Source: Helianthus annuus (taxonomy: Eukaryota > Streptophyta > Magnoliopsida > Asterales > Asteraceae). Taken from it: a DNA stretch of 64,000 nucleotides. The DNA lies in assembly GCF_002127325.2 (NCBI RefSeq), contig NC_035444.2:84185675-84249674 (forward strand), given 5' to 3'. The position numbers and the translations under genes are program-made. Below the pieces are notes generated by a model. It saw only the letters and a list, made by a program, of their open reading frames with translations. It did not search any database and had not been told where the DNA came from. Each line of letters opens with the position of its first letter. The first letter of the stretch is position 1. Positions 4,710 to 47,300 of this stretch are shown one piece after another.

Positions 4710-5146
4710 TGTTAGTGCATACATCTGTCGACTTCGTCTTGTATCGAGTCTTAGTCTTAGAATGTTAGATTAGGGCTCATTGTACGAGATTTCCCGACAT
4801 GTCCGTATATGGGAAACTAATAGTTCCGCTTATTCGTACATGTCCGTATATGGGAAACTAATAGTTCCGCTTATTCGTACATGTCCGTATATGGGAAACC
4901 TTTTGAATAGTTTCGCTTATACATACAACACTATATATACCACATGAGCAAACTCATTTGTAACGTTCTTGTTTTCCATACCGAGGTGCTGCCGGTGTGA
5001 GAATTGGTTGTAAATGTTGTTATATCAATCAACAAAGTGATTTAAGTGAAGATCTAGCTATTTCTACGTCAGGTACTTGTTTTACGCACCTGTATCTGAT
5101 CAAAACTCCTCTGATAGACTCGTTCGGGTCAGAATTCGATCCTACA
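4710..5146 (+). repeat. 5' LTR of element A
   Basis: 437 bp from TGTTAGTGCA to GATCCTACA. It holds three copies of a 41-bp tandem unit, then a TATA box (TATATATA, about 4931-4938). The pair partner is at 12685-13203. Confidence 0.93.
4797..4899 (+). repeat. 41-bp tandem array in 5' LTR of A (three copies)
   Basis: Units start at 4797, 4838 and 4879 with ACATGTCCGTATATGGGAAAC; the last is partial. Each full unit carries AGTTCCGCTTATTCG, a variant of the GTTTCGCT word repeated in the leader. The array lies in U3 upstream of the TATA box. The 3' LTR has five units. Confidence 0.93.
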
Positions 5147-5148
5147 AG

Positions 5149-9900: not shown

Positions 9901-10683
9901 AAGAAAGGTCTTGGTTTTATTTCACAAGAAAATTATAAAAAATAGAAAACTTATAAATCAAAAACAAAATTTGTTTCAGGTGGGACTTCTGAAGATGAGC
10001 AGAAGAAACCGTTCTGGAAACAGTCAAATCAAGAGTTTCTTGCTGAAGTAAAGAAGAATGTGAGAAAATCTGCTCAAAGAGTTGACAGAAGAACCTGTTT
10101 CAAATGCCAAGAAGTTGGACACATAGCGTGGAATTGCCCCAAAGCCAACTACCAAAAACAGGGGGTTTCTTCTAACTCTGTTTTGAGAGAAGCTTGTGTT
10201 GATAAGAAAGAACAATCTGTAAAAATTGTTAAAAAGTTTGAAAATTCTACTTCTGAGGAAGGATAAAGTTCAAAAAGGTTTTACAAAAGAAGAGGTGATT
10301 TAAGTAAACAAAAATGGGTTGTTAAATCTGAGGGTAATTCTGACAATGAATCTGATTCCATAAAATCAGAGGAGTCATTGGTTGATAAAAAGATTGTGAA
10401 TTCCGTTCCAGTGGTGAACGATGAGAATTTTCCGTCATTGTCAAAGGTAAATTTGATGAAGAAAGTTGGAAAGGTTGAGATCTCAACTCAATTCTTCGCT
10501 GATAAAGGACAATTTGATGTTGAGAAGGCTTTCAACGGGAAAGTCAAACATATTTTTGGGAAGATGGTTGATAAGAAGGTAAAAGGTGCTAAAGAATTTT
10601 ATAAATCAAAATGTTGGTGGGACAGATGTGTTCCAAAGTCACCCAAGACTGGTGAGGCTTGGGTGGACACTATGTTTGAGTAA
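6913..10683 (+). pseudogene. gag: Very long Gag of element A, broken
   Basis: The ATG at 6913 opens MAEEFYNAFATP, as in elements E and C. In order it has a UBN2-type Gag core (to about 7620), a first zinc knuckle at 8144-8185 (CFRCKGKGHFKREC), a VEVEK-repeat stretch (about 8720-8875), a CX2CX3CX2C cysteine cluster (about 8890-8922), a coiled coil, a YNRCPPP motif (about 9310-9335), a basic region, a second knuckle at 10096-10137 (CFKCQEVGHIAWNC) and a conserved C-terminus ending EAWVDTMFE. Lesions are a frame change near 7740, TGA at 8612-8614, a frame change near 8805, TAG at 9943-9945 and TAA at 10264-10266. The last natural stop is TAA at 10681-10683. The role is capsid assembly and RNA binding; this copy cannot make the full protein. 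Confidence 0.88.
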
Positions 10684-10696
10684 AACACCAGACTAT

Positions 10697-10737
10697 GCCG
10701 GAGATCCCAAGTTGGTAATCGTGGATCAGGAATCGGC
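10697..10737 (+). ncRNA. Post-gag stem-loop, copy A1
   Basis: It starts 13 nt after the gag stop. The outer stem is GCCG with CGGC and the inner stem GATCC with GGATC, with GA on the 5' side and a six-base bulge (AGGAAT) on the 3' side. ATCTTT follows. The same plan occurs at 10809, 38795, 38717 and 44269 with different but still paired inner stems. It is a candidate structured element of the transcript. Confidence 0.6.
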
Positions 10738-10808
10738 ATCTTTCATGTTTAAATAGGATGATTTGGAAGTGTTTGAAATCGTTAAAATTTTACAGGTTGA
10801 AGGACTAT

Positions 10809-10849
10809 GCCGGAGCTTCCAGGTTGGTAAGCGAGGAGCAGGTATCGGC
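10809..10849 (+). ncRNA. Post-gag stem-loop, copy A2
   Basis: A second copy 71 nt downstream of A1. The outer stem is GCCG/CGGC and the inner stem GCTTC with GGAGC (one G-U pair); the 3' bulge is AGGTAT and ATCTTT follows. Elements A and E each carry two copies in tandem. Confidence 0.58.
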
Positions 10850-11530
10850 ATCTTTCTTGAGGAATTTACTATGGTAATTTCAATCATGCAAACGGTAAAA
10901 AAGGTTTTTTTTGTGTTTGTTTACAAGTGATTAGAAGATTTGATTGTGAATAACCTGTGCATATGGTAAATCAAGGACATTAATTTGTACTTGCATTTTC
11001 CTACAAGTGATTGAGAGACAAGATGATGAACCACATCCCTGAACTTAGCATTGATATTCCTACAAGTGATAAAATCAATCAAACTTATTTTCCGGAAAAA
11101 TCATTTTGATTAAAACAAACTTAAGTGTTTTGAAATCTAAATGAGAAAATAGTTTGTTGATAGGGGGAGTTTTGATTGTTTATGCCAAGTGAATGGCGAA
11201 TTGAGGCGATTTGATATCGGTTGTCATGTTTTTGTACAGTTTTGTTTTCAATTTTCGTTAATGTGTTTGCATTTTAGGGGGAGTAGAAATTTTCAGAAAA
11301 TCCAAAAACATTAGAAAATTTGAAAAAGCCAAAAACATGATAAAATTCAAAAATGGGTTTCGTTGTAAAAAGAGGAAATGATAGTAAATCAGTGGACTGT
11401 CACAACATGCTAAAGAATTGGAAAGTTAAAATGTGATAAACAATCTCACTGCGGATATGCCAGTAGGTTTTTGCACATTTAGTAGATTGTGACGAGATAT
11501 AAATCGAAAAAACTCAAACTTGCTTATTCT

Positions 11531-12684: not shown

Positions 12685-13203
12685 TGTTAGTGCATACATC
12701 TGTCGACTTCGTCTTGTATCGAGTCTTAGTCTTAGAATGTTAGATTAGGGCTCATTGTACGAGATTTCCCGACATGTCCGTATATGGGAAACTAATAGTT
12801 CCGCTTATTCGTACATGTCCGTATATGGGAAACTAATAGTTCCGCTTATTCGTACATGTCCGTATATGGGAAACTAATAGTTCCGCTTATTCGTACATGT
12901 CCGTATATGGGAAACTAATAGTTCCGCTTATTCGTACATGTCCGTATATGGGAAACCTTTTGAATAGTTTCGCTTATACGTACAACACTATATATACCAC
13001 ATGAGCGAACTCATTTGTAACGTTCTTGTTTTCCATACCGAGGTGCTGCCGGTGTGAGAATTGGTTGTAAACGCTGTTATATCAATCAACAAAGTGATTT
13101 AAGTGAAGATCTAGCTATTTCTACGTCAGGTACTTGTTTTCCGCACCTGTATCTGATCAAAACTCCTCTGATAGACTCATTCGGGTCAGAATTCGATCTT
13201 ACA
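12685..13203 (+). repeat. 3' LTR of element A
   Basis: 519 bp, 82 bp longer than the 5' LTR because it has five rather than three 41-bp units. Otherwise it differs at about seven sites. It ends GATCTTACA and is followed by AAGAT. Confidence 0.93.
12772..12956 (+). repeat. 41-bp tandem array in 3' LTR of A (five copies)
   Basis: Units start at 12772, 12813, 12854, 12895 and 12936; the last is partial. It is the same unit as at 4797. Confidence 0.93.
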
Positions 13204-13208
13204 AAGAT
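13204..13208. repeat. Right target-site duplication of element A (AAGAT)
   Basis: It directly follows the 3' LTR end TTACA and matches 4705-4709. Confidence 0.93.
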
Positions 13209-14570: not shown

Positions 14571-17500
14571 TGTGACAACCCTCACTAAACCCGGTATCCG
14601 TACGATTTAATTAATAATTAATTGCTGCTTAATTACTGTGCTTACTTGAAATTACTGATGAACTGCTACTTGATTTCTGATACTTGTATACTCCTGCATC
14701 ATACTTTGATTTCCGTCACTACATTACTTACATACTGAACTCTAGTGACAAACATGATGCACAAAAGCACAGTAGGACTATGAACGGATAACCTATTGAA
14801 CATGCTGATAAAGCCAGCATCAGGCAGACACTGCCTCTAAGGCCTGTATGAGCCAGAAATATTTTACTACACCCATAGTGAGTGTAGGGATACAAGGGTT
14901 GTAGAACTGCGTCTCTAGGGATAAGTTATAGTGACCGGATGTGCCTAAAACGTACTCTAAGCACAAAACAAAGCACTTTAATTAACATACCAGCTTCTGG
15001 CTAACTAATAAAGTGCCAAAACATGAGGAAAATATTCCTGACACTTTGGGGAATAAGTTGTTTCACTAAAAATGATATTTACGACACTTAAAAGCTTTGT
15101 TAAGCACTTTAACGGATTACTATCCAACCGAACAACCGGACTATACACGGGACATAAAAATATTGACAGTAACATTATTGGTCTCTTTCTGAGCCAGTTA
15201 GGGTCCCTGAATACCCTAACACCCGCATTAAAGCACAACACACTAGTAACCGAGTTAAACTCTAAACTAACAAAGTTAACCTAACTAATACTTAACCTTT
15301 AGTTGAAATCGAACCAAGACCCCCCCCCCCCCATTGAAACCGTCCCCATGTAAGGGGGACATACTTGGTACTTTGGTGATTAGAATAATCACCCTTGTTT
15401 GATATCTAACCTACACTTGAACCATTGGTTAATGAACAAGGATTTATCTATAAGTAGTAGACTTGGCACAAGAGTTCATCACATTCCATTTTTCCACCTC
15501 AAAAACATCTCTCTCTCTATACAAGGGTCGGCCGAACACCCCCTTGATCATACACCATATTTTCGATTTTGTTCTTCACATTCCAATCATCTACAAGCTT
15601 CAAGGATCACACATAAGGAGTCTTGGAGCAAACGGAAGACGAAGGACCTCTCTACCTTGCTTTTATCCACCTCTTTTTCGCATAGATTCTTCCCTAGCCT
15701 CGAGCTAGAGGTATAATGCTTAAAACTCGTACTCGAACTAATCTAAGGTGGTTAATAAGATATATGATGATTAAAACTCGGAATCTTGCATTTTGAACCA
15801 TTAAAGTCTACTAAAATTACAAGTATTGTTGGTTAAAAGCATATAAGTTGTGTAAAAGTTGTAGTAACTGAAATTTGTGGTTACCTAGACCCGATCTACG
15901 TTGTGGTAGCTCGGATCACCATTTAACCCGGTTTGGTTAAGATCATGGATCTTGACATAAGCTTGTTTTGAATGAGACAAGGGTTAAAAAGTGAAACTCT
16001 ACCACACGAGAAACATGAACTTGTGTAAAAGTATTTTTACTTGTAAAATAGTGTTTGAAACTAGCGGATCTACGTATGTACAAATGGTATTTTCAAAGAA
16101 CCACGTATCAAAGAAAACATGTTTTCTAAAAACCACAAGTGTGTAGACACTTGTGAAATGAAAGGTTCGACAAAATAACAAACTTGTAAAAGATGACGAG
16201 AAGTTGTAAAGATGGATTTACTTTAAAAAAAACGAGGTTTTTACGAGATCGATCTACTTTATATAAAGATCCACAAAGTATAATGGGATTTACACTATAG
16301 TTTTCGGAAAAACTACAAGCTCATGCGATTATGCGATTTACATACTTGTCGACTGGTTTGATGTGTCGGAAATTGTTTGATTGAATAAAGAAGTTGTTGA
16401 AATTGATTTTGTAAAAGAAAATGATACGCTTGAAAGCGTGGCCACCTCCAGTTACAGAGGAAACTCTGGCGAAATTTTTCTAAAAACCTAACACTTAGAA
16501 TTATTTACACTACAAGTGTTAGAATTATTTTTGATATGTTTTCAAAGTATATTTCGCCACGACTTTATTACAAATATTCGGAGGTGGGATTTTCACAAAA
16601 CTAAACGTGATAAATATATATTTAGTAAATATATTTTCACCACATTGTTTATGATTATTTTGTGAAAATACATAAATATTATTTTTAGAGTAAAAATAAT
16701 ATTTCGAACGATAACATATCCAAAATAATACAAACGCTTACACGACAAACATATAAGTTACACCGGTAATTATTATTACCACTTAATCGTTAAAACATAA
16801 CTTGCGCATTATACGGAAATATTCATGAACGCGTATTTTGTCAACGTATTATTTTTGGAAGTATTATGTGAAATGGAAATATAATATTTTTGAGAAAAAT
16901 ATTTATATTTTGGAATTAGAAGTAAAAATATATTAAGTGAGACTTAATGATATAATTCAAACGCACATGTATTAAATCCCCCATCCTTGGGAAGGAGATT
17001 AACTACCAAGTACATACGAAAAGTAAACCCGAAATAGTTGTCTAACTATTTCCCAAAAACTTAAACTATAAAGCTAAGGTACGGCCGTCCGTCTAATAGA
17101 ATTAGCACATGTAGGTCGTTGCACAGCTGCCTGATTTGGAGTGCTTGGTAGAGACGCACCGACTGTGAGTTCATGTCCCCCTTTTCTCTTAACTGTTTTC
17201 AGTTTTATAAACTGCGGGGGTGAAATACATGTTACTATGATTACGAATATTTCTTACATGGTATGGTCAGCTAAGGAAGGAACTGTTAGATTATGAGATT
17301 TGGGTAGGTGAGACCTTAAGAACATTAGTCCTCGTAGTACGATCGAGGGATACAAGTGATAGGCCTATTTGAGCATAACAAACCCCACCCATGCGCCCTA
17401 AGGTTGGACCATGTGGTGACTTTGTCTTAACACCACCCATGCGCCCGCAGGTTGGACCATGTGGTGACCTTGTCTTAACACCACCCATGCGCCCGCAGGT

Positions 17501-18090
17501 TGGACCATGTGGTGACCTTGTCGTAACACCACCCTTGCGCCCACAGGTTGGACCATGTGGTGACCTTGTCCTATCCCCTCCCATGCGCCCGCAGGTTGGA
17601 CCATGTGGTTACACATTAACTGATATGTTTCCTTATTTGCTTTCATACCAGAGTTTACAAAATATTCACACTTGCAATGATTATAAAGGTTTACTCGCGG
17701 GCACATACTAAACACATGAACTCGCTCAACATTATTGTTGATTTTTCAACTTACATGTATTTCAGGGAATTAAAGGATCTGGCACGGTATGGCACGTTTT
17801 CCCGCTGCACTAGTTTCCGAGGTCATCCAGGGTTTAGGGAATGTGACTCTTTCCTGGACAAGTCACAGTCCTTAAACTGTGTTTATGCTATACTTAAGTT
17901 TGTAATGTTGTTGAACAAGGTTGTGGTTGTTAGGGCGTATTCCCGTTAAAACAATGGTATTGTATTTGGTTTTCAAAACTTAATGGATGATCTTGCATGT
18001 TTTTAATTCATATAGCTTTGTTATGATTAAGCTATGGTATTGAGAAGTCACACCAAATTAACCACGCTTCTGCAAAGCCAGGGTGTGACA
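14571..18090 (+). repeat. First LTR of element F (3.5 kb)
   Basis: It starts TGTGACAACCCTCAC and ends GGGTGTGACA, three bases before the primer-binding site. It includes a poly-C run (about 15320-15332), AT-rich stretches (16600-16960) and a 48-bp tandem array. It differs from the second LTR at roughly 16 sites that I could see. No real gene lies inside; repeat-derived frames near 17291-17715 are artefacts. Confidence 0.92.
17388..17609 (+). repeat. 48-bp tandem array in F LTR (4.6 copies)
   Basis: The unit starts CCCATGCGCCC and includes AGGTTGGACCATGTGGTGAC. Because 48 is divisible by three, it opens long frames on both strands, which explains the spurious repetitive proteins there. The same array is at 27724-27945. 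Confidence 0.93.
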
Positions 18091-18093
18091 GCT

Positions 18094-18107
18094 TGGTATC
18101 AGAGCTC
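18094..18107 (+). other. Primer-binding site of element F
   Basis: TGGTATCAGAGCTC follows the LTR end by three bases and is complementary to initiator Met-tRNA. Confidence 0.9.
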
Positions 18108-18253
18108 TGATCATAGCGAACTAGGATTCCTTCTCGAGTCTAGACTATGATCACTAGGGCTCTCACGAAAACATTTTTACTGCATACCACTTAAGTCCAG
18201 ATCCAAAACCTTTTTATAAACAAATGTTGAGCACATTTTATCTATTTATTTTT

Positions 18254-18640
18254 AGGCTCAGTCTTGGAGGCTGAGGCTCGGTCTTGGAGGCCGAGGCTCG
18301 ATCTAGGAGATCGAGGTAGATGGCTAGTGAGACTAGGAAGAGTAGGCTCAGTCTTGAAGGCTGAGGCTCGGTCTTGGAGACCGAGGCTCGATCTGAGAGG
18401 TCGAGGTAGATGGCTAGTAAGACTAGGGAGAGTAGGCTCAGTCTTGGAGGCTGAGGCTCGGTCTTGGAGGCCGAGGCTCGATCTGAGAGGTCGAGGTGGA
18501 TGATAGAGCAGTCTTAGAGACTGGAAGGAATTTGGCTAGTGGGACTAGGAATGTCAGTCTTAGAGACTGGGAAGAATTTGGCTAGTGGGACTAGGAGTGT
18601 CAGTCTGGGAGGCTGGGAGGCTAGTGGGACTAGGAGAAGT
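18254..18640 (+). ncRNA. Array of about 17 mini-hairpins in F leader
   Basis: Three 90-bp units start at 18254, 18344 and 18434, followed by shorter units. Each is built from tiny palindromes with 3-5 nt loops: CTCAGTC/GGCTGAG, CTCGGTC/GGCCGAG, CTCGGTCT/AGACCGAG, CTCGATCT/AGATCGAG, CAGTCT/AGACTG and CTAGT/ACTAG. Sequence changes between units keep the pairing. It begins 147 nt after the primer-binding site, where packaging and dimerisation signals of LTR elements often lie. The open frame across it is an artefact of the repeats. Confidence 0.65.
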
Positions 18641-19816
18641 ATTTGATTGCTTATTGACTAACATGTTTATATGATAATATGATTGATTGTTATACGTATG
18701 AGTATTTGTGTTACAAACGTCATGGACACTACGAATCCCATGGGCATCAGACGACATAGTTTCATCGGAGCACGAGGTGTACATTTCCGATACTACCGGC
18801 ACAGACAATAACGACTTCCAGCCCTTTTGCGCTACCTGAAGTCGTAGCAGAGCCTACTGATGGCCATCTTGTAGGGAATTTGCCACTCGCGGTGATCCCT
18901 GCTCCTGTGCCCCCTTGCCGCTTATCCCATTGTTGATATGCCCCCGACGTGGCCTCTGACGACGATAACGATCTACTAGAGGAGGACCTATTCGAGGGCG
19001 AGGCCCTATTGCTGCTGGTATTAGCCTACTGCTTGCGGACGCTCCTGCAGGGGAAACTCATGCCCATTCCCCTGTCCCAGACTCATTTGAGTTGCTAACA
19101 TCCGCATTTTCGCATATACAGGGAGTGTAGCACCATTCACACAACGCCGACCCTGATACAGCATCATCGGCTGCACCGGTTCCCGCACATAGCTTTGAGT
19201 TTGATCACAGTATTGAGGGTGATCTTGTTCTTTCACCCAGTTTTGATCCAGACCATGACCTTGAGTTCATACACTTAGACCAGCCCTTGGAGGATCCTGC
19301 AACCCCCCTGTGATGGTTGATCCAGCTGATTTTTGAGACGGAGTTTGTTGATCCGGAGCCAGCCGTGGCCCTGAGCCAGGCGTTGCTCCTGACCCCGCAT
19401 TGGAGCATGACCCTGTTCATGCCAATGCACCTGCTATCGCTCCTTGGTTGATCATCTGCTTGGACGAGAGAAAATGTGGGGTAACTATGCAAGATAATTT
19501 ATTATTACGGGGGCCCACGTAATAACGACTTGTAGTGCACAGAAATCCCAGTGGACTCTGCGAGTCAAGCTAATGGAAACAAATGTAGTAGGAAATAACT
19601 AATGACCAAGGCGATATAGCCTCGAGTTCATTCTATTACAAGCATCAAGCCAAATTGGCAAGCCTATGTGAAGGCCTAGTAATTTATTTCCCCACCCATA
19701 CATTGAGTATATTTACATGTAAAATTAGGTGAGTACATGATGGCTTATGGTGCTATGTATCTCATAGACAATTGGAAAGTTGTCTAACCCACTTCATGCC
19801 ATTTCGGCAGAAGAGA
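18641..19816 (+). other. Long leader of F with decayed acidic coding traces
   Basis: Scattered plus-strand frames rich in D, E, P and A (for example DLVLSPSFDPDHDLEF near 19220-19265) resemble the low-complexity region ahead of Gag in related gypsy elements. Frame breaks are many, and there is no intact ORF. The rest, 19480-19800, shows nothing recognisable. Confidence 0.4.
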
Positions 19817-20347
19817 ATGCCACCCAGGCGTGACACAAACACTAGTATGTTGCCAGGGATAGAAGCCGACCTGCAAAAACGCAACTCACAGGCAATTGCA
19901 TGACATGAAGCTCTCCGTTTTTAGCACAGCAATGGCACTACTGGAAATAACCCCCCAAGCTGACCGCACCTATAAGTAGTTCCTGAACTGCAAGCCTTTG
20001 AACTTCGACGAAACAGGAAGCGCCATTGCATTTGTTTGTTGGTCCGAAAAGATTGACCCCATTCTAAGAAAGACTAACTGTTCGCCCCAACAGAGTGATA
20101 CCTTTACCTCGGGGCATTTCTAGACGGCACACTCTCATGGTGGGACCATCAGGTTCAGGCCCTTGACACAGATGCTGCTTATGCACTGAGCTGGGATGAG
20201 CTCAAGGAAATGATGGAGGAAAAATGTGGTTCTAAGACTGGAATCCAGAAGCTTGAGATAGAGTCCTGGAATTTGAAAATGGACGAACCAGAGATTCCTG
20301 AACATGTCCAGCGATCGCACGACTTGCCTAGGGTCGTCACCTACTAA
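19817..20347 (+). pseudogene. gag: First, decayed gag copy of F
   Basis: It starts ATGCCACCCAGGCGTGAC, parallel to the start of the second gag (MPPRRD). Degraded blocks match that Gag in order: GTLSWWDHQVQALDTDAAYA, then SWDELKEMMEEKCGSKTG, then WNLKMDEPEIPEHVQ. It is full of stops and lacks the second half, including both knuckles. It lies about 220 bp upstream of the better gag, so F carries a tandem gag duplication with one dead copy. Confidence 0.75.
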
Positions 20348-20565
20348 GTCATTGATGTTGTATGATACAGTTGGGTACCTGTAAACCTTACATTCTGGTC
20401 TCGATTTGTGGCAATGAAATCGATGTAATCTATTGTTTATGTCCTATGACATGAGATGTTATGTGATTGATTTATTGATAACATGAGATGTTATGTGTTG
20501 ATATTGTTGTATACTCACGCACATTTTACTTACTATGACCTGACCCGTACGATCAGCATAGGAAG

Positions 20566-21660
20566 ATGCCTCCAAGACGGGATGTATGCATACCCACCAA
20601 TGAGGCGGAACTTCAGGGAATCATTGCTGCAGTCATCGCACAATACGAGGCCCATCACTCCGAGCGCAACGGAGGTACCTCAGGAAATAACCCACCCAAC
20701 GGCTGCACCTACAAGCAGTTCTTAGGCTGCCAACCCCTACATTTCGACGGCACTGGGGGTGCCGTAGCCTTCGTACGCTGGATTGAGAAGACGGACACTG
20801 TTTTGCGTGCGAGCAAATGCGCCCCAAGAAATCAGGTCACGTACATTTCCGGGCTGTTCCGAGATGGGGCTCTGTCATGGTGGAAACTTCAGGTTCAGAC
20901 AATGGGCGAGGCTGCTGCGTATGCTCTATCATGGGACGAGCTGAAAGAACTAACGCATAAAAAGTACTGTTCGAGAACAGAAAGCCAGAAGGTAGAAACT
21001 GAGTTCTGGAACTTGAAGATGGAAGGTCCAAAAATAGCTGAGTATGTGGAGAAGTTCCAAGTTCTATCGCGTATCGTTCCTTACATGGTAGATCTGGAGT
21101 TTAAAAGGATTGAGCGTTTCATTTGGGGATTGGCACCCCAAATCATGAGCATGGTAACGGCATCAAAGCCTGCCACAATCTCTGAGGCCATCAATCTAAG
21201 TGTAGCCCTGACGGAAGAGGCAATCAGGATGAACAAATTTTCAGCCTCTGAGGAGAAGAAGGAGACTCATGTAGAGTCATCTGGGGACAACAAGAGGAAG
21301 TTGGCGAATTTCAAACAGGGTACCCAGTCGAGTAGCGACGACAAGGCCAAAAAGAGAAAAGAGTACACGGGTATCCTACCAAAGTGCGACAACTGTCGAC
21401 GTCACCATAACGGGCGGTGTAGATATGGAAAATGTGGTAACTGTGGCAAGGTGGGACATGTCAAGGAAACATGTCGGCAAGGTACTGAACATGGAAATAG
21501 AGGTCAAGATGGTAACGGAAATCGCGGAGGAAATAACGACGACGACAACTATCAAGGCAGGGATGGTGACAATCAAGGCGGTGGCCAAGCATGTTTTAAT
21601 TGCGGTGATGTGGGGCATTTCAGGAAGTATTGCCCTAAGAACACTCAGGCACGTGGATGA
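20566..21660 (+). CDS. gag: Gag of gypsy element F
   Basis: 364 residues, open from ATG to TGA. The N-terminus is MPPRRDVCIPTNEAELQ. The Retrotrans_gag core spans about residues 50-220 (LHFDGTGGAVAFVRWIEKT, LSWWKLQVQ, SWDELKEL, WGLAPQI). A lysine-rich linker follows, then CX2CX4HX4C knuckles at 21433-21474 (CGNCGKVGHVKETC, residues 290-303) and 21592-21633 (CFNCGDVGHFRKYC, residues 343-356). It forms the capsid and binds RNA. It is the only intact gene of F; the second unit carries a nonsense codon at the equivalent of residue 39. Expression is unproven. Confidence 0.88.
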   Translation: MPPRRDVCIPTNEAELQGIIAAVIAQYEAHHSERNGGTSGNNPPNGCTYKQFLGCQPLHFDGTGGAVAFVRWIEKTDTVLRASKCAPRNQVTYISGLFRDGALSWWKLQVQTMGEAAAYALSWDELKELTHKKYCSRTESQKVETEFWNLKMEGPKIAEYVEKFQVLSRIVPYMVDLEFKRIERFIWGLAPQIMSMVTASKPATISEAINLSVALTEEAIRMNKFSASEEKKETHVESSGDNKRKLANFKQGTQSSSDDKAKKRKEYTGILPKCDNCRRHHNGRCRYGKCGNCGKVGHVKETCRQGTEHGNRGQDGNGNRGGNNDDDNYQGRDGDNQGGGQACFNCGDVGHFRKYCPKNTQARG

Positions 21661-27900: not shown

Positions 27901-28426
27901 CTTGTCCTATCCCCTCCCATGCGCCCGCAGGTTGGACCATGTGGTTACAAATTAACTGATATGTTTCCTTATTTGCTTTCATACCAGAGTTTACAAAATA
28001 TTCACACTTGCAATGATTATAAAGGTTTACTCGCGCGCACATACTAAACACATGAACTCGCTCAACATTATTGTTGATTTTTCAACTTACATGTATTTCA
28101 GGGAATTAAAGGATCTGGCACGGTATGGCACGTTTTCCCGCTGCACTAGTTTCCGAGGTCATCCAGGGTTTAGGGAATGTGACTCTTTCCTGGACAAGTC
28201 ACAGTCCTTAAACTGTGTTTATGCTATACTTAAGTTTGTAATGTTGTTGAACAAGGTTGTGGTTGTTAGGGCGTATTCCCGTTAAAACAATGGTATTGTA
28301 TTTGGTTTTCAAAACTTAATGGATGATCTTGCATGTTTTTAATTCATATAGCTTTGTTATGATTAAGCTATGGTATTGAGAAGTCACACCAAATTAACCA
28401 CGCTTCTGCAAAGCCAGGGTGTGACA
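24908..28426 (+). repeat. Second LTR of element F
   Basis: 3,519 bp, nearly identical to 14571-18090. It is followed not by host DNA but by another primer-binding site (28430-28443) and interior sequence. Confidence 0.92.
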
Positions 28427-28429
28427 GCT

Positions 28430-33507: not shown

Positions 33508-36333
33508 CTAAATACCAAAACAGGTAAACAATCGACAAACCATTGCAGATTGTTTCTCATCTTTATCCACAACAGTACTCTCATCAACGCCAATTATGCC
33601 ATCCGACACCGAAAGAAGCTTCATACCATTCAGTTTTAACAAATATTTAAACCGATTTTTATCAAAAGCTTTGGTATGTAAATCAGCTTTCTGTTCGTCA
33701 ATGTGGATTTTCTCAATTCGTATCGACTTTTGCTCGAAGCAATCGCGAATAAAGTGATGACGAATCTCTGTATGTTTAGTTTTAGCGTGATGTATTGGAT
33801 TCTTTGTTATATTTATAGCGGCCTCATTATCAACAAACAGAGGTGTGTTAAGAAACTGCAAACCGTAGTCGCGCATCTGTTGCTGTATCCACAAGATCTG
33901 AGAGCAGCAACTGCTAGCAGAAACGTACTCTGCTTCACATGTAGATAACGCCACAGACGTTTGTTTCTTACACTGCCAGGTAACCAATCTAGGTCCAAAG
34001 AACTGGCATCCTGCAGTTGTTGATTTGGTATTGATTTTGCAGCATCCGAAATCCGAATCGGAATACCCTTCGAGCGTAAAGTCGCCTTTTCTAGGATACC
34101 ACAACCCCAAAGTAGGTGTTGCTTTCAAGTAGCGTAATATCCTCTTCACAATAATCATGTGCGAAGCTCTCGGGTTAGATTGATATCTTGCTGCGAGGCA
34201 CGTTGGGTACATGATATCAGGACGTGAAGCAGTTAGATACATCAAAGAACCTATCATGGAACGGTAGAACGTTTCATCAGCCCTGTCTCCGGTGAGATCT
34301 GGGTGAATCCCATGATTTGTTGCAAGTGGGGTAGCAGCTGGAGTAGAACTTGACATTCCAAATTTCTCTAGAATATCATGCACGTACTTCGTCTGGTGAA
34401 TGAAAATTCCCTCAGGTAGTTGTTCAACTTGAAGTCCCAGAAAGAATTTCATCTCCCCCATTGATGACATTTCGAATTTTTTCTTCATCACCTGTTCGAA
34501 ATCTTTGCACAATTTCTCATTCGTTGACCCAAAAATTATACCGTCTACATAAATCTGAACTATCAGAAGGTGTCCGTCGACCTCCTTAGTGAAGAGAGTG
34601 GCATCCACATTTCCACGAATGAACTTGTTGGCTAGTAGGTGTTGAGACAAAGTCTCGTACCAAGCTCTCGGGGCCTGGTGTAAACCATACAGCGATTTGT
34701 CCAATAGGTAGACCTTGTTTTTGTGGATTGGGTCAGTATAGCCCGGCGGCTGACCGACATAAACCTCCTCTTTGACCTTCCCATAAAGAAACGCCGATTT
34801 TACATCCAACTGATAAACTTTGAAGTTCTTCCAAGACGCAAATGCAAGGAAAATTCTGATTGCTTCTAGTCGTGCCACAGGAGCATAGACTTCAGTAAAA
34901 TCAATCCCTTCCTTTTGACTAAAGCCCTGAACAACGAGTCGAGCTTTGTTCCTTACAACAACCCCTCTGTCATCTCTCTTACACTTGAATACCCATTTTG
35001 TATTGATTTTCCTTTGACCATCCGGTAAATCCACTAACTTCCACACTCCCAACTTTTCAAACTGACTCAACTCTTCTTGCATTGCAATGACCCAAGAGTC
35101 TTCAGTAAGCGCCTCTTTATACGTTCTCGGTTTGATCTGCGAGATAAAACAACTTAATGAAAATTCAGTTTGTAAAGGTGCTACTGTAGAATAAAAACAT
35201 GTTAAGCCCGGGTCTATTTGACGTCTCGTGCGAACGCCTGAATGCAATTCTCCTATGATCAACTCCTCTGGATGATAAGAAAAAGTTCGCGGCATCACTT
35301 CGCTTGGAACATCCACATCACCTTCCAGATTAGTAACATTTTGATTTGCACTTTGTTCACCAATTTGGTTTATTTGACTTGAATCCTGAATCTGCTCCCC
35401 CTCAGAATCTGAATCTCCATGATCAAAGATCGGCGTGTTCTCTGATTCTTGGTTATCATTCTGATCTGACTGATTATCTTGAGCAACTTCATTCTGTTGG
35501 ACATCATCGTGTTCACCAGCATTACTCGGACCTGCTTCATCATCATTTGAAGTTTCCCGTGGTCGTCTTGAATACTCAGCTGGGAACCTTTGCTGTGACT
35601 CGTACTCACGCAAAATATCCAATTCATCAAAGAAATCTTCTTCTTCTTCTTCTTCCATCATGTCAAATGATTCCCACAACTTGTCATAATGATATCGCCA
35701 TGAATCTCCTGGACTTTGTGGCGGCATAGTATAACCTTGACATTCAACATTTGCAGCTTCAATAATTCGCTTCTCACTTGGAACGAAGACACGGCGCGTA
35801 GGACATGAATATCCAACAAAGATACCCTCAATGCACTTCGGACCAAACTTTCCATAAGGCTCTATAACTGTACAGGGTGACCCGAACGGTTCTAGATACT
35901 TCAAATTCGGTTTGCAATTATTGATCAGCTCAAAGAATGTTTTGTTGAACTTCTTGACAGTGAGAACCCTGTTGAGCGTATAGCATGCGGCAGAAACAGC
36001 TTCAGCCCAAAAATTAATCGGTAACTTTGAATCTACGAGCATCGTTCTAGCCGTCTCAATTAGTGTCCGTTTTTTGCGTTCTGCGACTCCATTCTGCTGC
36101 GGAGTGTACGGAGCACTAAACTCATGTAATATACCTCTTTCATCACAAAATTCTTCCATTCTGCTGTTCTTGAATTCAGTACCATTATCACTTCGAATTC
36201 TTTTGATACGCCTCTGGTATAGATTCTCAATCTTCTTGAACAACGCCATTAAACTACCAAACGTTTCATCTTTCGTCTTCAAGAAAGAAACCCACGAAAA
36301 TCTGGAATAATCATCAGTAACCACAAGACAATA
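33508..36333 (-). pseudogene. pol: Pol of element B, downstream part: integrase core, RT, RNase H
   Basis: A 938-codon open frame. The integrase core begins [13 protein letters not shown], with RSDNGTEF and [10 protein letters not shown] supplying the other acidic residues. The reverse transcriptase follows ([37 protein letters not shown]). Its catalytic box reads YVDG at the place of YVDD, so the second aspartate is lost. RNase H follows ([47 protein letters not shown]). The motif set fits the Sirevirus branch of Ty1/copia. TAG at 33508-33510 runs into a GGGGGAG polypurine motif. The gene is split from its N-terminal part by element E. Confidence 0.9.
36329..36333. repeat. Left target-site duplication of element E (CAATA)
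   Basis: CAATA lies before the LTR start TGTAGG and recurs at 43542-43546 after the other LTR. Confidence 0.95.
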
Positions 36334-38716: not shown

Positions 38717-38757
38717 GCCAATTCCTACTCCTCGCTTACAAACCTGGGAGTTCCGGC
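38717..38757 (-). ncRNA. Post-gag stem-loop, copy E2
   Basis: Outer stem GCCG with TGGC (one G-U pair), inner stem ACTCC with GGAGT, 5' GA and 3' AGGAAT. Both arms of the inner stem differ from the other copies yet pair perfectly. It lies 37 nt downstream of E1. Confidence 0.58.
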
Positions 38758-38794: not shown

Positions 38795-38834
38795 GCCGAT
38801 TCATGATCCACAATACCATCTTGGGATCTCCGGC
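38795..38834 (-). ncRNA. Post-gag stem-loop, copy E1
   Basis: It begins 11 nt after the gag stop. The outer stem is GCCG/CGGC and the inner stem GATCC/GGATC, with 3' bulge ATGAAT followed by ATCTTT. Confidence 0.6.
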
Positions 38835-38845
38835 AAGTCAGGTTT

Positions 38846-41800
38846 TCATTCTTGAAAAAATATATCCACCCAAGCCTGACCTTCCTTGGGTGTAACCTCA
38901 TCATTTTCATTGTTTCTTTCAACCGACCTGTAAACCCATCCTTTGGAAGCATAAAAATCTCTAATGCTCTGGGCCTTACCACTGATCATTTTTCCAAAGA
39001 TGCGTTTTACATTTCCATTGAAAGTTTTTTCAACATCAATTTTCTCCTTGTCAGAATAAAACTGATTTGAAATATCAACTTTTCCGATTTTAGATTTATA
39101 ATTTTTAGCACTTAGTGGCGGAAAATTCACATCATCCACTTTCTGTACTTTCTTTTCAATCTTTTTCTCAACACGTGACTCCTCTGATTTTATGGAATTA
39201 GATTCATCACCAGACTTGTTACCTGAACCTTTTACAACCCATTTCTGATTTGTAGCATTGTCTATTCTTTTAGAAGCACTCTTTGAAGATTCTCCTTTTT
39301 CATAAGTCGAATTCTCAAAGCCTGTGAACTTCCGGGTTGATAGTTCAGTCTTCTCAACAACTTTTTCTTTCATTTTTCTTGAGACTTCTTGTTTTGGTCG
39401 AAATGTCTTTGGACAATCTTTCGCAACATGACCCATAGCTTTACACTTAAAACAAGATCTCTTTTCAACCTTCTTCGGATCCTTCTTCTTCATATCCTCT
39501 TGCTTCTTAGCAAGGAATTCTTGATTTGTCTGATTTCTGAATGATTTTTCTTTTTCAGCTTCTGTAGTTTTTCCTGCAACAAACATTGTTTTTGGTTTAT
39601 AAACTTTTTCATTTTTATAGTTTTTCTGTGGAGCAAAACCAAGACCTTTCTTTTTGTAATTACGATCATGGTTTGGTTTCTTTTGGAAACTATAACCACA
39701 ATTGTAACCCATTTTCTTGTTGATTCTTTGTTGATCTCTTGAAGTGTATTGTTTAGATTTTCCATTAAGATTAAAATCTTTTATTTCAAAAATATTAATT
39801 TCTGTAATTTTGAAAACCTTTTGAATCATTTCAAGTCTGACACTTCTTATTGGAAAACTTTCATCTGAATATAATTTGTCAGAATCTTTCAAAGTATATG
39901 CCACTTTGACTGATTCATCATTCAAATTAGATTTCGAAAGTAAAAATTCTTTATCATAAACCCGTTTGTCCTTTTTGACTGTTGGCTTTGACGCACTGGA
40001 CCCAGACTTTGACTCGGGTTTTGATTCCTCAGTGTCATCTGTGTCTAACACCTGATCGACCATACTTTTTATCAACTTTGACTCATGATCAGTGTCGGAT
40101 GACGTATATGTGACATCAATACTTTCTGGTAAGTTATCCGACGACCCAGACTCCCATTTCAAATTGATTGCTTGATTGACTCTTTCTGAATTTGGATTTC
40201 GAGGTGAATATCCATTTTCGACCGGGGGCGGACATCGGTTATAGGATACACTCGGTTTCTTACCAGAAGTCTTCAATTTTTCTTCATCTTTTGTCACGGA
40301 TTTTTCTTTTTCAAATATGTTCACTTCTTCAAAAGTTTTCAAATCTTTCACGACTGGATAAATCCTGTCAACAACAAAAGTAGAACATGAGTAACTGTCT
40401 AATAATTTCTTAACTTTCTCAGTTTCTATCTTTTGTGTTGCCAACTCAAGCTCGAGATCTGCACATTTCTTTATGTTATAGTTTGCCGTATCAAGCTGTC
40501 TCAGATAAGCTATCTTCAAAGTATTCATCGCTTCAGCTTGTTCACCATCAGAATCAGTATATTTGTTGATTTCTCTGTTCATAGTATCATACGATTCTTT
40601 CAGCTTGTGAATGTTGTGCAACAGCTCGTTGTTCTGCTTAATCAGCGAATCACAATTCATGCACTTTTCTTGGACCATGACCGGTTCAGCATCCACTTTA
40701 ATCTCAAATTCAGGAACCTCTTTGGCTGTCCTGCTTGAATTTAAAAAATGAGCTCTTCTCAATTTCTCAGCTTTCGCTTCTTCCTTTAATCTCTCTTCCT
40801 CTTCAGCCTCCTCTATGATCTTTCTTCGTCTTTCTTCAGCAGCTTCCATGACTTTTCTGCATCTTTCTGCACATTTCAAATCATACGCATTAGCAAAGAA
40901 AGCATGAGAAGTGTTTTTAGACATCTCTTTGGCCATAAGATTTTGATCTGGACAAAAATCATCCCAGGTAAAACCTTCAACCATCTTTTCATCATCTTGT
41001 TCAGCTAGACACACTTTGCTATCTTTTGGAAGATACTTTTCCCAGGTAAAATTATCATATTTTCCCTGACTAACAACACATGCTCTTTTATCAGCCACAT
41101 CTCTTCCATGAGCTGTTTGTGCCTGATGCTGCTGTGCTGGTTGAGTGATTTGATGATAAATGGCCTTCTTGTGATAATCATTGTTTCCGAAAGGATTCTG
41201 GGCACCGGTAGCTTCACGGTTTTTACATTCCCTCTTGAAATGCCCCTTTTCCCTGCAACGAAAACATGTAACTTTAGATTTGTCAAAACCTAAAGCTGAA
41301 ACATTTGCATCACGAAAATCATCACGGCCGGTAATTTGTTTAAACTTTTCAGCGCGTCTCATCACACTCGCCATACACCATTTTATATCCATTAATTCCA
41401 TTTCTTCAGCATCAATTTGATCGTAATCCTCTTTTGTGAGCATTGGATTTCCGATCTTTCCTGCAACAAAACAACTATAAGATTCTAAAATCATCCCTAA
41501 CAAAGACATCTGATTTTTAGCAATATCTTCAGTGTAGTCTTGATCATTTTCAAGGCTTAACACAATGTTACACTGAAGTTTTCTACCATTCTTTGTTACA
41601 GAGATGTTAGGATCAAAAGATGAAAATCTTGTGCTGTTGCTTGATCCTTGAGATGTCTTCTTTTCAACAGAATCTTTAACACTGTAAGCAGTTTCGATCT
41701 TAGGAGAGAACTTTGTTGAATCAGTAACACCATGCTTGTAGTACAGACTGATATCCTGCTCTCCATCGTAGTTCTTCATCCTAGCGATCTTTCTCTGCTC

Positions 41801-42481
41801 CATCTCTTGAGCTTCCAAATGTTTGATAAAATCTCCCAAAGTCATAGTTTTGTAATCTTTTCTGTTAGATCTCAGCATCATCAGAAATGTTCCCCATGTT
41901 TCGTATGGAAGCGCATCTGCAAGTTTTTCAATTAACTCATCAGTATCTTTTTTAATACCTAATTTTGTCATATTTCTCACCAAGTTACAATATCTATCAA
42001 TAATCTGCTTGGTGTTTTCAGACTTTAAACCACGAAACAAATCAAATTCTTTCTTCATGAGAGATTTTTTATTCTTAAGCATATCATCACTTCCAATAAA
42101 TTTTGCTTCCAACTCTGTCCAAATTGAATATGCAGTTCCATCGTGTTGAAGCAGAATCAAGATATCCTCTTTTATAGCTTGCTGAAGCAGACTCACCATG
42201 AGTTTTTCATCCCGATATTTCTTTTTATCATCTGAACTCATTTCTCGAAGTGTTTGCTGCACACCATTTTTAACTGGTCTAACATATGGTTCTTCAGTAT
42301 GTTCCCATGCATCAAGATGATAAGCTTCAACCCAATTTCCGAATCGTTCCGACCACACATTGTAATCATCAATATCCATGAGTTTCGGTGGCTTCTGAGA
42401 CGTTCTGGTTTCATTTTCTATCAAAGCACTCTGAGTAATCGAAGTCGGGGTGGCAAAAGCGTTATAAAATTCCGTATCCAT
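38846..42481 (-). CDS. gag: Intact 1,211-residue Gag of element E
   Basis: Open from ATG (42481) to TGA (38846-38848). The UBN2-type Gag core covers about residues 30-250 (DDYNVWSERFGNWVEAYHL, LLQHDGTAYSIW, RYCNLVRNM). Knuckle 1 is at residues 406-419 (CFRCREKGHFKREC, 41225-41266). An E/K-rich helix follows (about 555-590), then CMNC and a coiled coil (about 620-720), YNRCPPP (about 760), an acidic serine-rich stretch, a basic aromatic stretch, and knuckle 2 at residue 1010 onward (CFKCKAMGHVAKDC, 39413-39454). The C-terminus reads EAWVDIFFQE. The role is particle assembly and RNA packaging. It is far longer than typical copia Gags; coiled-coil Gags are known in Sireviruses. It is the best-preserved copia gag closed within the window. 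Confidence 0.93.
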   Translation of the reverse strand: MDTEFYNAFATPTSITQSALIENETRTSQKPPKLMDIDDYNVWSERFGNWVEAYHLDAWEHTEEPYVRPVKNGVQQTLREMSSDDKKKYRDEKLMVSLLQQAIKEDILILLQHDGTAYSIWTELEAKFIGSDDMLKNKKSLMKKEFDLFRGLKSENTKQIIDRYCNLVRNMTKLGIKKDTDELIEKLADALPYETWGTFLMMLRSNRKDYKTMTLGDFIKHLEAQEMEQRKIARMKNYDGEQDISLYYKHGVTDSTKFSPKIETAYSVKDSVEKKTSQGSSNSTRFSSFDPNISVTKNGRKLQCNIVLSLENDQDYTEDIAKNQMSLLGMILESYSCFVAGKIGNPMLTKEDYDQIDAEEMELMDIKWCMASVMRRAEKFKQITGRDDFRDANVSALGFDKSKVTCFRCREKGHFKRECKNREATGAQNPFGNNDYHKKAIYHQITQPAQQHQAQTAHGRDVADKRACVVSQGKYDNFTWEKYLPKDSKVCLAEQDDEKMVEGFTWDDFCPDQNLMAKEMSKNTSHAFFANAYDLKCAERCRKVMEAAEERRRKIIEEAEEEERLKEEAKAEKLRRAHFLNSSRTAKEVPEFEIKVDAEPVMVQEKCMNCDSLIKQNNELLHNIHKLKESYDTMNREINKYTDSDGEQAEAMNTLKIAYLRQLDTANYNIKKCADLELELATQKIETEKVKKLLDSYSCSTFVVDRIYPVVKDLKTFEEVNIFEKEKSVTKDEEKLKTSGKKPSVSYNRCPPPVENGYSPRNPNSERVNQAINLKWESGSSDNLPESIDVTYTSSDTDHESKLIKSMVDQVLDTDDTEESKPESKSGSSASKPTVKKDKRVYDKEFLLSKSNLNDESVKVAYTLKDSDKLYSDESFPIRSVRLEMIQKVFKITEINIFEIKDFNLNGKSKQYTSRDQQRINKKMGYNCGYSFQKKPNHDRNYKKKGLGFAPQKNYKNEKVYKPKTMFVAGKTTEAEKEKSFRNQTNQEFLAKKQEDMKKKDPKKVEKRSCFKCKAMGHVAKDCPKTFRPKQEVSRKMKEKVVEKTELSTRKFTGFENSTYEKGESSKSASKRIDNATNQKWVVKGSGNKSGDESNSIKSEESRVEKKIEKKVQKVDDVNFPPLSAKNYKSKIGKVDISNQFYSDKEKIDVEKTFNGNVKRIFGKMISGKAQSIRDFYASKGWVYRSVERNNENDEVTPKEGQAWVDIFFQE

Positions 42482-43546: not shown

Positions 43547-44268
43547 TTTATCTCCTGTAATGCTCTTGACATTCAGCGGACCAAACAAATCCATATGAAG
43601 TCTCTCCAGGGGTCTTGAGACTGAATTGACTTGCTTTGTAGGGTGTGAATTTTTCTTCTGATTGCCTTTAACACAACTAATGCACTCCCCTTCCAAATGA
43701 AAACCTTTGACATGAACTCCTGTAACCAAATCATTATGCACCAAATGATTCATTTTTCTAAGATGTATATGCCCCATCTTCCGGTGCCACAATCTTGATT
43801 CTTTCTCAGTTGCTCTGGACACGAAACAATGAGCCTGACCCGTGGTTGTAGTAGCTACACTCATATCCAACACGTACAGATCATTAACTCTTGGTGCCCT
43901 CATGATAATCCATTCCTCAGGGATAACAAATCCTGGTTTCAAGATCAAACATTCTTTATCAGTGAAGTGAGTGGTATACATCCTATCACAGATCTGCGAG
44001 ATACTCAACATATGTTCTCCAGCTCAGCAATGTAGTTAACTCTCTCAAATGTCATAATCCTGTTAGATAACGTTCCTTCACCAATAATCCTTCCTCCTTG
44101 ATTACCCGCAAAACCTACGTATGCTCCATTTATGTTTTTTACATCATACAGCAACGCGGTCTTCCCTGTCATATGTCTTGAAGCTCCACTATCCATGATC
44201 CATCTGGATACAAGTTTTGGAAGATCCTGCACATAACAAACTTTGACTTAACCAACTTCAATAAAGAT
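43547..44268 (-). pseudogene. pol: Pol of element B, upstream part: protease and GAG-pre-integrase
   Basis: The frame 44005-44232 has the aspartic protease site WIMDSGASRHMTG and NQGGRIIGEGT. A frame break at about 44005-44011 separates it from the next frame, which carries SISQICDRMY, the HHCC zinc region (LWHRKMGHIHLRKMNHL, then CISCVKG) and LHMDLFGPL before E interrupts it at DKYC. The protease frame is offset by -1 from the gag frame, and a TAA in the protease frame lies between the stem-loop and the protease start. Pol is thus not simply fused to Gag in this copy. Confidence 0.88.
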
Positions 44269-44303
44269 GCCGATTCATGCTTCGCGACCAAGGAAGCTCC
44301 GGC
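44269..44303 (-). ncRNA. Post-gag stem-loop, element B
   Basis: Outer stem GCCG/CGGC, inner stem GCTTC/GAAGC (perfect, and different from the GATCC/GGATC of A1 and E1), 5' GA and 3' ATGAAT, followed by ATCTTT. It begins 12 nt after the likely natural gag stop (TAA, 44316-44318) and lies between gag and pol. Confidence 0.6.
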
Positions 44304-44315
44304 AATTCAAACTGC

Positions 44316-47300
44316 TTAGTCAAACATGGTGTCCACCTAGGCCTCATCAGCCTTAGGTGTAACCTTGACCGTTTTAACTCTCGCAACTTGAATTTTAAAG
44401 TTTTCAGCCTTCAGAGGTGGAAAATTCGCATCATAATCAACTTGAATTGACTCCTCAGAAGGTGAAATCTTTTTCTCTGTTTTCGGTTTCCAAACTTGTT
44501 GAGATAATGCAACCCGTTTGTAAAATTTGTCATTTTTAGTTACCGACTTCTTTAAAGGTTCATTTTTCACACTATTTTTCTCAACAACGATTGGTGTTTT
44601 ACCCTTCATAGCAACTTTCTTCTGTTGAGTCTTCACAGTTTCAGTCTTAGGCTTCTCGTTGGTACACTTTCGTGCAATATGACCAACTTGATTACATCTG
44701 AAACATGTTCGAGTATCAGCCACTCGACTTGTGCCTTCAGACTGAGACTGAGAAGCTCTTTTCTCAAAGAATTCTTTGTTTGATTTTGAAAAAATTTCTT
44801 TCTCTTCATCAGCAAGTGAACTCGAACTGTTCACAAACTTTTTCTTCTCAGCAAACCTCTTGTTTGAAACATTTCTTTTCTGATACGATTTACCCCCTGA
44901 TAACCACCCGACCAATTGTTTCGGTTGTTATTATAAACACGCGGTGGATTAACAGATTTCTTGTTGTAAACTTTTTCTTTCTCAAACCTTATTTTACTTT
45001 TCTTTTGACTCAGATTGTTCACTTCTGACAACTCAACTTCGACCAACTTGAAAACATTTGTCAATTTGTTCATGTTAACATTCTCTATCGGAAACTCTGA
45101 ATCCGAAAACAACTTATCTGAACCCAACATCTTGTACATGACAAGATTTGATTCTTCATTTAAGTTGTTCTTGGACTTTTGTTTCGGAATGTATTTGTCC
45201 AAGAAACACCCATCTTCCTCAGTAGTGTCACTATCTGTTTTTAGCACATTTTCAACAACACCTTTTACAATATCATTTTGGACACTATCGTCATTGGAAG
45301 ATGTGAACGTGACATCAATGTTCTTCGGAAGTTTTACTTCACTTTCTTCTCCAATTTCAACCAACCCTAATTGCTTTTTCGTGTAATTATCCAAAATCGG
45401 CAGTGGAACTCTATGAAAACCCACCCCGGTTCCGTCAGAATAAACATCTTCGCCAGCTTTGTTTTTCCCGATAGGTTTTGGAACAATGTGTTGCAAAACA
45501 AAGCTTGCGGAGCTGTAGCTGTTAAGCTTCAACTGGATTCGCTCGTTTTCAATCTCAGCCTCTTGAAATTTAAGTTTCAGATTAGCGATTTCATCCAGTT
45601 GTTTGTTGATTGATTCTTCTTTTACTCTCAGCACTGCTTTTAAATGAACGTTTTCTTTATGAGTTTTACCATTACGATCATCACAATCTTTCATTGTGCT
45701 TTTGAGTTTTTCAAACTTTTCAGAAATCTGACGGTTTTCAAGAATTAGCTTTTCATTTTCATTTTTAACTTTTTCATGATCAATTTTATCTTTTTCAATT
45801 TGACTAGTTAATTCTTATCCATTCAGTTGAAGCTTTAACTGTTTTGTCACGATTAAGAATTTGATTCTCAACACTTCTGACCTTTGCTGTTAGATCTTCA
45901 ACTTTCTTACCGTTGAGATACGTGACTGTATTACAAAATTTGCACTCTTTGTTGCAATTTTTGCAATCAACATTTCCATCAATTTGTTTACCTGACGCAT
46001 TTGTTGACAAGTTTGAACTGACCTGGCTTTTTGACTCAGACACGGAGTTAGAGTCTACCTCAAGTGCCTTAGCAGCCAGCACTTTGTCAGCCATTTTTCC
46101 CAGGTTCTCAGCAGTCAACTCCTGCGTTGTATCAATAACTCCAGTATCAATCTTCTTTGATTTCTCCTTCTCTTCTTTCTCCTTTTTCTCTTTCTCTTCT
46201 TTCTCTTTCTCATCTCCAGTTCCCCACCATTTATTCTGCCAATACTCATCTTCTTCTTTTAACTCCTTGATTATGGCTTCGATATCAAGCGTTTTGTCAA
46301 CGATCGCAATATTTCCATCCTGATCAAGATAACACTCCCTGTCCGGATCCCATCTTCTCGCTCTTCTCGCTTCCAGATAGATACCAGAAATTCTAATGAT
46401 TCTGTTCTCAGCAATCATTTTTCTGTATCTATACTTCTGCTCTTCAGTACGAGTATCTTTCCATGGAATAGGTTCAGTTTTCGCCATGAATGCGTAACCA
46501 ACCGCATCTTCCTCTGGTAGAACCTCTTGACTCCAATCATACCCCTCATCATCGTAAATCACCGAAAGAGCTCTAGATTTCTCTTTGTTGTCTTCAGCCT
46601 GCTTCAATCTAGGTGGCTCAGATTTATTCTGGTGATAAATCGCCTTCTTGTAGTAATCATCTCTGAAAGGGTTCTCCGACTCATCAGCATATGCGTTTCT
46701 GCATTCACGCTTGAAGTGACCTTTCTGCTTACACTTGAAGCATGTCACTTTGGATTTATCGAATCCCAGCTTGGTAAATGGACCACCAATTGTCTTCCTG
46801 CCGGTAATTTCCATGAAACGCTGTGCTCGACGAACAGCACTAGCCATAGCCCAACGAATATCGATCAGCTCCATTTCTTCAGGATCTATCTGATCATAAT
46901 CTTCCTTCGTTAAGTTGGTATTGCCTATCTTCCCAGCTACTAACCCTTCATACGATTCCAACACCGATGCTAAGAAGATCATCTGCTGTTTGGCCGACTC
47001 CTCATCAAAATTCTGAGCATTCTTCAAGTCTATTGCAATGTTGCATTGAAAACGATTCTTTGCATCAGAATAACTTGCAGATGATGAAGATCCACTGTGA
47101 TAACCACTGTGATTTCCACTGCTTTGACCACTTTGACTTTCTTTGCTTGATGTGGACACATTTTCAGCAGAAAAAGCAGTTTTGGGAGAAGTTGCTTTTG
47201 GCATCATGCTTTTTGGATAATACAAATCCAAATTTTGATGATAGGATGAGTGATTGACTTTGTATGTCTTTTTCAGTTCCAGCTCGTGACTTTCAAGTCT

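Follow-up and report, generated by a model that had tools for sequence, protein, structure and literature searches.

Behind the gag stop codon of three Sirevirus-type elements of Helianthus annuus lies a conserved, covarying sequence, here called HP-II, that is predicted to fold into a hairpin in the element RNA. Five copies of this hairpin 3' of the gag stop were found in elements A, E and B of the window (the whole 64,000-nt stretch of contig NC_035444.2 that was analysed), and the two elements without pol carry it twice. The explanation we favour, with a probability of about one in three, is that HP-II would be a stop-proximal stability element of the full-length RNA, comparable to that of Rous sarcoma virus. 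Sireviruses reach very high numbers in some plant genomes, and since 2003 it has been a puzzle by what means they express pol and select the RNA to be packaged. A second covarying hairpin, retained where pol is lacking, separates an RNA function from pol recoding, and the stretch between gag and pol in B yields a splicing hypothesis for the sunflower elements.

10697..10737, + strand: HP-II copy A1, 13 nt past the gag stop of A
10809..10849, + strand: HP-II copy A2, the second hairpin of A
38795..38834, - strand: HP-II copy E1, 11 nt past the gag stop of E
38717..38757, - strand: HP-II copy E2, the second hairpin of E
44269..44303, - strand: HP-II copy B, between gag and pol of B, 12 nt past the gag stop

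Structure, covariation and uniqueness of HP-II

A preliminary description of this DNA had reported five such stem-loops 11-13 nt after the gag stop. All five are present and are the only ones by pattern and covariance model, and the distances measure 13 (A), 11 (E) and 12 nt (B), although the stop codons differ (TAA, TGA and TAA, respectively) and so do the flanks. The second copy lies 88-125 nt past the gag stop; counted from the stop to the end of that copy, the stretch spans 166 nt (A) or 129 nt (E). Of the stem plan proposed earlier, the copies and arms stand and the six unpaired bases do not: a U pairs with a G, and the outer stem comprises 6 bp (UGCCGG with UCGGCA, the last pair being G-U) that are invariant among the copies. 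It is followed by a 1x5 internal loop (A opposite RKGWA), a 5-bp inner stem whose letters vary, and an end loop of 15 nt (A1, A2, E2), 14 nt (E1) or 9 nt (B), the whole hairpin measuring 35-41 nt. As had been noted, AUCUUU usually comes next (4/5 copies); UCUUU occurs once per hairpin, except at E2, which is without it.

In the five-copy alignment all 55 base-pair cells are formed and no pair is broken, and three of the 11 pairs, all in the inner stem, have changed on both sides (alignment pairs 14-38, 15-37 and 17-35), which agrees with the earlier claim that compensatory change points to a selected RNA structure. E2, for instance, has A-U in the inner stem where A2, its counterpart by order, has G-C. 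Among 500 shuffles, 8 attain the covariation score and percentage paired, 36 the doubly changed pairs and 146 the further pair types; structures slid along the same alignment pair 18-40% of the cells, and RNAalifold, unaided, recovers these 11 pairs plus one. Coming from five related rows, this covariation is good but not final evidence for the structure. The folding energies of single copies (z -0.7 to -2.5) are weak evidence, the outer stem forming in 5/5 folds and the inner stem in 4/5, with that of A2 in another register. Longer stretches do not clearly exceed shuffles in stability: in A (251 nt, z -1.1) the best fold pairs A1 with A2, in B (z -1.5) both HP-II and the upstream hairpin HP-I (see below) form, and in E (z +0.4) E1 forms and E2 does not.

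These energies, the restriction to five copies and the fact that related rows can exceed shuffles speak for HP-II having no present function, its pairing having been kept by chance in a few lineages of recent common descent. We consider this improbable, as three pairs have changed on both sides with none broken, and divergence is far greater in the spacers next to the hairpins than in the hairpins themselves.

The covariance model built from the five copies scores them at 62.5-79.5 bits (filters off, window), and the next best of its 23 window matches up to E 10 reaches 12.6 bits. No HP-II was found in the window outside the five sites by either pattern or covariance model, and none in the LTR-like repeats; the plan matches five times in the window and once in total in 60 Markov-simulated windows of the same dinucleotide make-up. 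Rfam gave no window match at gathering score and none at E up to 1 for 10600-10900. No relative was found in IMG/VR, where a loose HP-II DNA pattern hit at least 120 stretches that were taken as chance matches and left out, and no gag relative was found among GTDB contigs. The latter contain 17 loci with copia pol, of which the frames were viewed in seven and the gag/pol junction in one, L121, a copia contig in a bacterial assembly with separate gag and pol; HP-II is absent from L121, and the covariance model does not exceed 11.7 bits across the 17 loci.

Two other origins of the sequence were considered. A coding sequence is ruled out by the one-base gap that separates A1 from E1 in the five-copy alignment, because of which HP-II keeps no reading frame. 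A relic of a pol start was not adopted: the local similarity is weak, and comparing the five copies with two pol starts, one of them that of a further element, F (10 comparisons), gave 0/400 shuffles at best (E1 with F) and 9-314/400 for the rest. Among 175 proteins, P0014 and P0023 read into HP-II-like sequence and may be protein-level traces of it, which is suggestive only, as codons are not visible in proteins; a third protein matching the pattern, P0124, is unrelated.

Host elements and conservation without pol

4797-5147 and 12854-13204: LTR-like direct repeats of A
10681..10683, + strand: gag stop of A
36334-36795 and 43080-43541: LTR-like direct repeats of E
38846..42481, - strand: gag ORF of E, 1211 aa, open, with its stop at 38846-38848 and then no pol
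44014..44226, - strand: pol (protease) start of B, directly 3' of TGCAG/GAT (here and below, a slash marks the pol boundary)
33508..36324, - strand: remainder of B pol (integrase, RT), beyond the inserted E
59227-59560, + strand: element F, decayed, with gag missing between a PBS-like site and the pol start

Elements A, E and B can be assigned to the Sirevirus/SIRE lineage of Ty1/copia by their features (a large gag with a zinc knuckle, and the order PR-INT-RT) and by their relatives, Helianthus proteins being nearest to the gag of E and the pol of B in a protein search. The Pfam domains in the host elements are Retrotran_gag_2, zf-CCHC, gag_pre-integrs, rve and RVT_2. E is inserted within B, and the pol protein P0033 accordingly matches B in two parts (tblastn, 44241-43538 and 36354-33511). 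The same protein, searched by tblastn over the whole window, revealed no pol in A or E, in line with the earlier account of both. It also revealed the additional decayed pol start of F (59444-59954), which has a PBS-like TGGTATCAGAGC, presumably of tRNA-Met type, ∼230 nt upstream of the pol start SRVQ/GLPRRSAFSKWIMNSE. The gags of A and B are broken into several ORFs, unlike the open gag of E, and B is a decayed copy whose frames prove little.

Other features of the window concern its elements more generally. Ty3/gypsy-like gag and pol ORFs (by ORF reading) lie in a 7.6-kb stretch that occurs twice, at 14571-22176 and 24908-32512, with 99.4% identity and 10.3 kb apart. Polypurine-like GGGGGAGT tracts precede a common linker in B (33420-33560, -), A (11160-11290, +) and E (38300-38420, -). 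These linkers are 82-87% alike among A, E and B, yet a gag of E's family matches A at 41-49% and B at 24-34%, and linkers may have been exchanged between families.

Aligning A with E confirms that the hairpin is kept, and kept doubled, in Gag-only elements, as the preliminary description had it: the first copies are identical at 39/42 positions (1 gap column) and the second copies at 37/43. HP-I is identical at 22/26, the last gag codons at 86/138 (21 gap columns), the spacer at 10/23 (33 gap columns) and the 203 nt downstream of the hairpins at 98/185 (25 gap columns). The hairpins of A and E are therefore islands amid fast-changing sequence, whose conservation is high but not unique; they are not the sole conserved noncoding part, since the linker at 11061-11310, with no known function, is also 81-85% alike (102/120 and 105/129). 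The stretches downstream of the hairpins in A and E are related beyond chance, their local score being reached by none of 500 shuffles, and the pol-less layout is hence probably ancestral to both elements and predates their split. As HP-II has been kept in A and E, pol recoding cannot be its only job, and a signal serving pol alone should have decayed there; its retention suggests that it likely serves the RNA itself and not only pol production.

One such service would be packaging or dimerisation, in which Gag or its zinc knuckles would bind the hairpin and thereby select full-length RNA, a place within an intron excluding the spliced form. Gag-only elements would need packaging and not recoding, which fits the retention and doubling of the hairpin there; tandem copies would suit a protein-binding site, as would an outer stem that is invariant while the letters of the inner stem vary. 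We nevertheless hold this reading to be possible but doubtful, as packaging does not require a fixed distance to the gag stop, no palindrome common to the loops was seen by eye that could serve kissing, and the loop of B is short, unlike the others.

HP-I, the gag/pol interval of B and the expression of pol

In A, E and B a second hairpin, HP-I, lies within the final gag codons.

10640..10665, + strand: HP-I of A, with stem CACCCAAG pairing with CTTGGGTG, candidate for the published Sirevirus motif
38867..38892, - strand: HP-I of E, with the same 8 bp and a 10-nt loop
44334..44359, - strand: HP-I of B, a variant in which, read by eye in the A/E register, one C-G pair has become U-A and one pair is mismatched

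HP-I measures 26 nt and in A comprises 8 + 2 bp around a 4-nt loop (centroid fold). Its folding z-scores are -2.0, -2.1 and -3.4 in A, E and B, and the gag end of L121 has a similar stem (z -1.7). In a four-row alignment, in which L121 is poorly aligned, 84.4% of the cells are paired (67/500 shuffles), and sliding the structure by one column gives a higher covariation score than the structure in place (0.292 vs 0.208). The gap from HP-I to HP-II is 31, 32 and 30 nt in A, E and B, with the gag stop inside it. A ribosome covers about as much RNA as this gap of ∼30 nt.

Gao, Havecker, Baranov, Atkins and Voytas (2003; via PMC5009743 and PMC2829016) described a covarying stem-loop at the Sirevirus gag/pol boundary, summarised in a 2016 review (PMC5009743) as a motif of 27 nt with an 11-bp covariant stem and a 4-nt loop. 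We infer that this motif corresponds to HP-I and not to HP-II, because its size and place, as summarised there, fit HP-I better, best in A and less in E.

HP-I and HP-II could be read as flanking a ribosome-sized slot around the stop, in which pol would be recoded by bypass, frameshift or re-entry; recoding was proposed for the genus in 2003, and the 30-32 nt spacing with the stop inside recurs in three elements. As the sole role of HP-II, recoding, one of the options that the earlier note had put forward, is not supported: the hairpin is retained in A and E, stop codons differ, and read-through of the gag stop in B halts at the third codon. The pol frame of B, said to be blocked by one stop before the protease, is indeed blocked, but by two (UGA and UAA between gag stop and protease), in what is a decayed copy. 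Nor is a frame kept through the hairpin, given the one-base gap between A1 and E1. No downstream frame encoding a recoded product was found in the three elements, A and E having no pol and the pol frame of the decayed B being closed, and we regard a recoding role as quite unlikely. In L121 the pol ATG overlaps the gag stop (ATGTTTGTGA, within L121:2560-2660, followed by TTCTTTTTCAG/GAC), and re-initiation at this overlap is an option there.

The interval between gag and pol in B has features of its own.

44227..44336, - strand: 110-nt GT...TGCAG interval of B that contains HP-II and the stop of the gag frame; predicted facultative intron, from protein records

It runs from GTG at 44336 to TGCAG at 44227 and is, by eye, in phase 0 with gag and pol at its ends. 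Splicing it out could join gag to the protease, with the hairpin lowering or timing the splicing. Such a boundary is apparent in protein records: 23 of the 29 proteins matching the pol start pass from gag-like sequence to pol at one boundary ([DEG]LP in 20; ELL, GLS and bare LP in the other 3), while of the remainder four begin at an inner Met, one is joined a few residues later and one reads VQ/DLP. Four of the 175 proteins (P0051, P0111, P0153 and P0174) join just after the position of a gag W (R in P0153), and P0153, which has the gag end of B, joins exactly at the interval's GTG. CAG/G is found at the pol boundary in all three DNA copies read (B; F, at 59462-59464, where the pol start also has TGTGCAG/GG; and L121), and Q, placed by eye, stands just before the boundary in 15 of 59 rows with the protease motif, five of them nearly identical.

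Set against this, Q is absent from 44/59 rows, including joined ones and some that are not alignable, 9 of the 23 joined proteins share one upstream sequence (FGSVSE or FGTVSE), and the majority of copies are probably dead. B has a weak donor and, in this copy, a stop codon directly before the GTG; the corresponding interval of L121 is not an intron, because its 29 nt are too short to splice; and A and E, having no pol, would have no need of splicing. The protein records are moreover annotators' predictions, in which an annotated intron is indistinguishable from a genomic deletion, and splicing is therefore kept here as a hypothesis. Control of splicing as the role of HP-II appears to us to have a slim chance. 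In E, a GT...TTGCAG/GACTTGCC interval of 107 nt (vs 110 nt in B) was seen at 38763-38869 (-), ending just before the second hairpin; its likeness to the pol start of B is not significant (68/400 shuffles).

A broader proposal, which we rate as unlikely, would have sunflower Sireviruses make pol by splicing out an intron with the stop and the hairpin, the hairpin marking and protecting the unspliced RNA that is both genome and gag messenger; parasitic gag-only elements, needing no pol, would keep and double the mark. If true, splicing would take the place of the mechanisms that were put forward in 2003 for Sirevirus pol expression, namely internal entry or bypass by the ribosome.

A proposed role in RNA stability and comparison with known systems

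The favoured stability reading fits several features: the place of HP-II is fixed at the gag stop, the identity of the stop codon and the frame of pol are indifferent, a long tail follows, and the hairpin is doubled where pol is lacking. The tail between the gag stop and the second LTR-like repeat is 2170 nt long in A and 2050 nt long in E. A hairpin behind the gag stop would shield an RNA with such an untranslated tail of at least 2 kb from nonsense-mediated decay, and RNA stability would be the role for which HP-II has been selected. A protein may bind the outer stem, which is invariant, together with the purine internal loop and the AUCUUU behind the hairpin; this AUCUUU we take to resemble PTB motifs. 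In pol-bearing relatives the hairpin would sit in a facultative intron, so that only the unspliced RNA would carry it, this being the form expected to end translation at the gag stop and to serve as genome.

In Nicotiana, a 3' untranslated region of 747 nt is reported to trigger decay already (PMC6277124). The stability element of Rous sarcoma virus is described as lying immediately 3' of the gag stop, with a minimum of 155 nt, and as protecting unspliced RNA independently of the stop codon (PMC2925335); binding of PTBP1 to its many CU-rich sites keeps UPF1 off (PMC4764554). The number of sites speaks against the stability reading, as HP-II has one UCUUU each and E2 none. So does a result from TCV, in which absence of structure after the stop went with decay resistance and a stable hairpin placed there abolished it, recoding structures protecting RNA when positioned to allow recoding (PMC6277124). 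Also against it are the second copy, 88-125 nt from the stop, the conservation of the linker, and longer folds that are no better than shuffles.

Among known systems, the nearest in genus and place is the stem-loop of Gao et al. (2003). It is a closer precedent (PMC5009743, PMC2829016) than the stop suppression at the SIRE1 env-like ORF that had been invoked earlier. HP-II shares with it the genus, the boundary and a covariant stem, and differs in its size (35-41 nt), its 1x5 internal loop, its end loop of 9-15 nt, its position after the stop and its doubling in pol-less elements. As summarised in the reviews, pol lies in the +1 frame there, whereas in the decayed B it lies in the -1/+2 frame, with UGA and UAA and no such UAG. 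HP-II thus looks like an additional partner of the published hairpin. Among the papers listed in literature searches, at the level of openings of abstracts and with most subscription papers outside this scope, no hairpin after a Sirevirus gag stop and no Sirevirus gag/pol intron were found.

The RM boxes of Sireviruses are palindromes of 10-20 nt with a CGG-CCG core, located in LTRs or before env (PMC2829016). HP-II is likewise a GC-rich inverted repeat in Sireviruses, but it is longer, is interrupted by an internal loop, closes in an end loop and is placed behind gag, with none in the LTR-like repeats, and does not qualify as an RM box by this description.

To the Rous sarcoma virus element HP-II bears a likeness of place, lying 11-13 nt past TAA, TGA and TAA, and each is found 3' of a gag stop on an RNA that is both messenger and genome. 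By description, which is the level of this comparison, and not by sequence, the viral element is otherwise unlike HP-II, with 155-400 nt, several stems and CU-rich sites.

The predicted interval of B, finally, resembles the short optional introns at or near the gag/pol border of Ogre, which has a facultative intron between its gag and pol ORFs (PMC6317226), and of BARE1, where splicing of a 104-nt intron at the protease start creates a stop and yields Gag (PMC3735527). In B the gag stop would be lost on splicing and gag joined to pol, which is the situation in Ogre and opposite to BARE1. A covarying hairpin at the Sirevirus gag/pol boundary and a facultative gag/pol intron in Ogre are thus both known, according to these sources.
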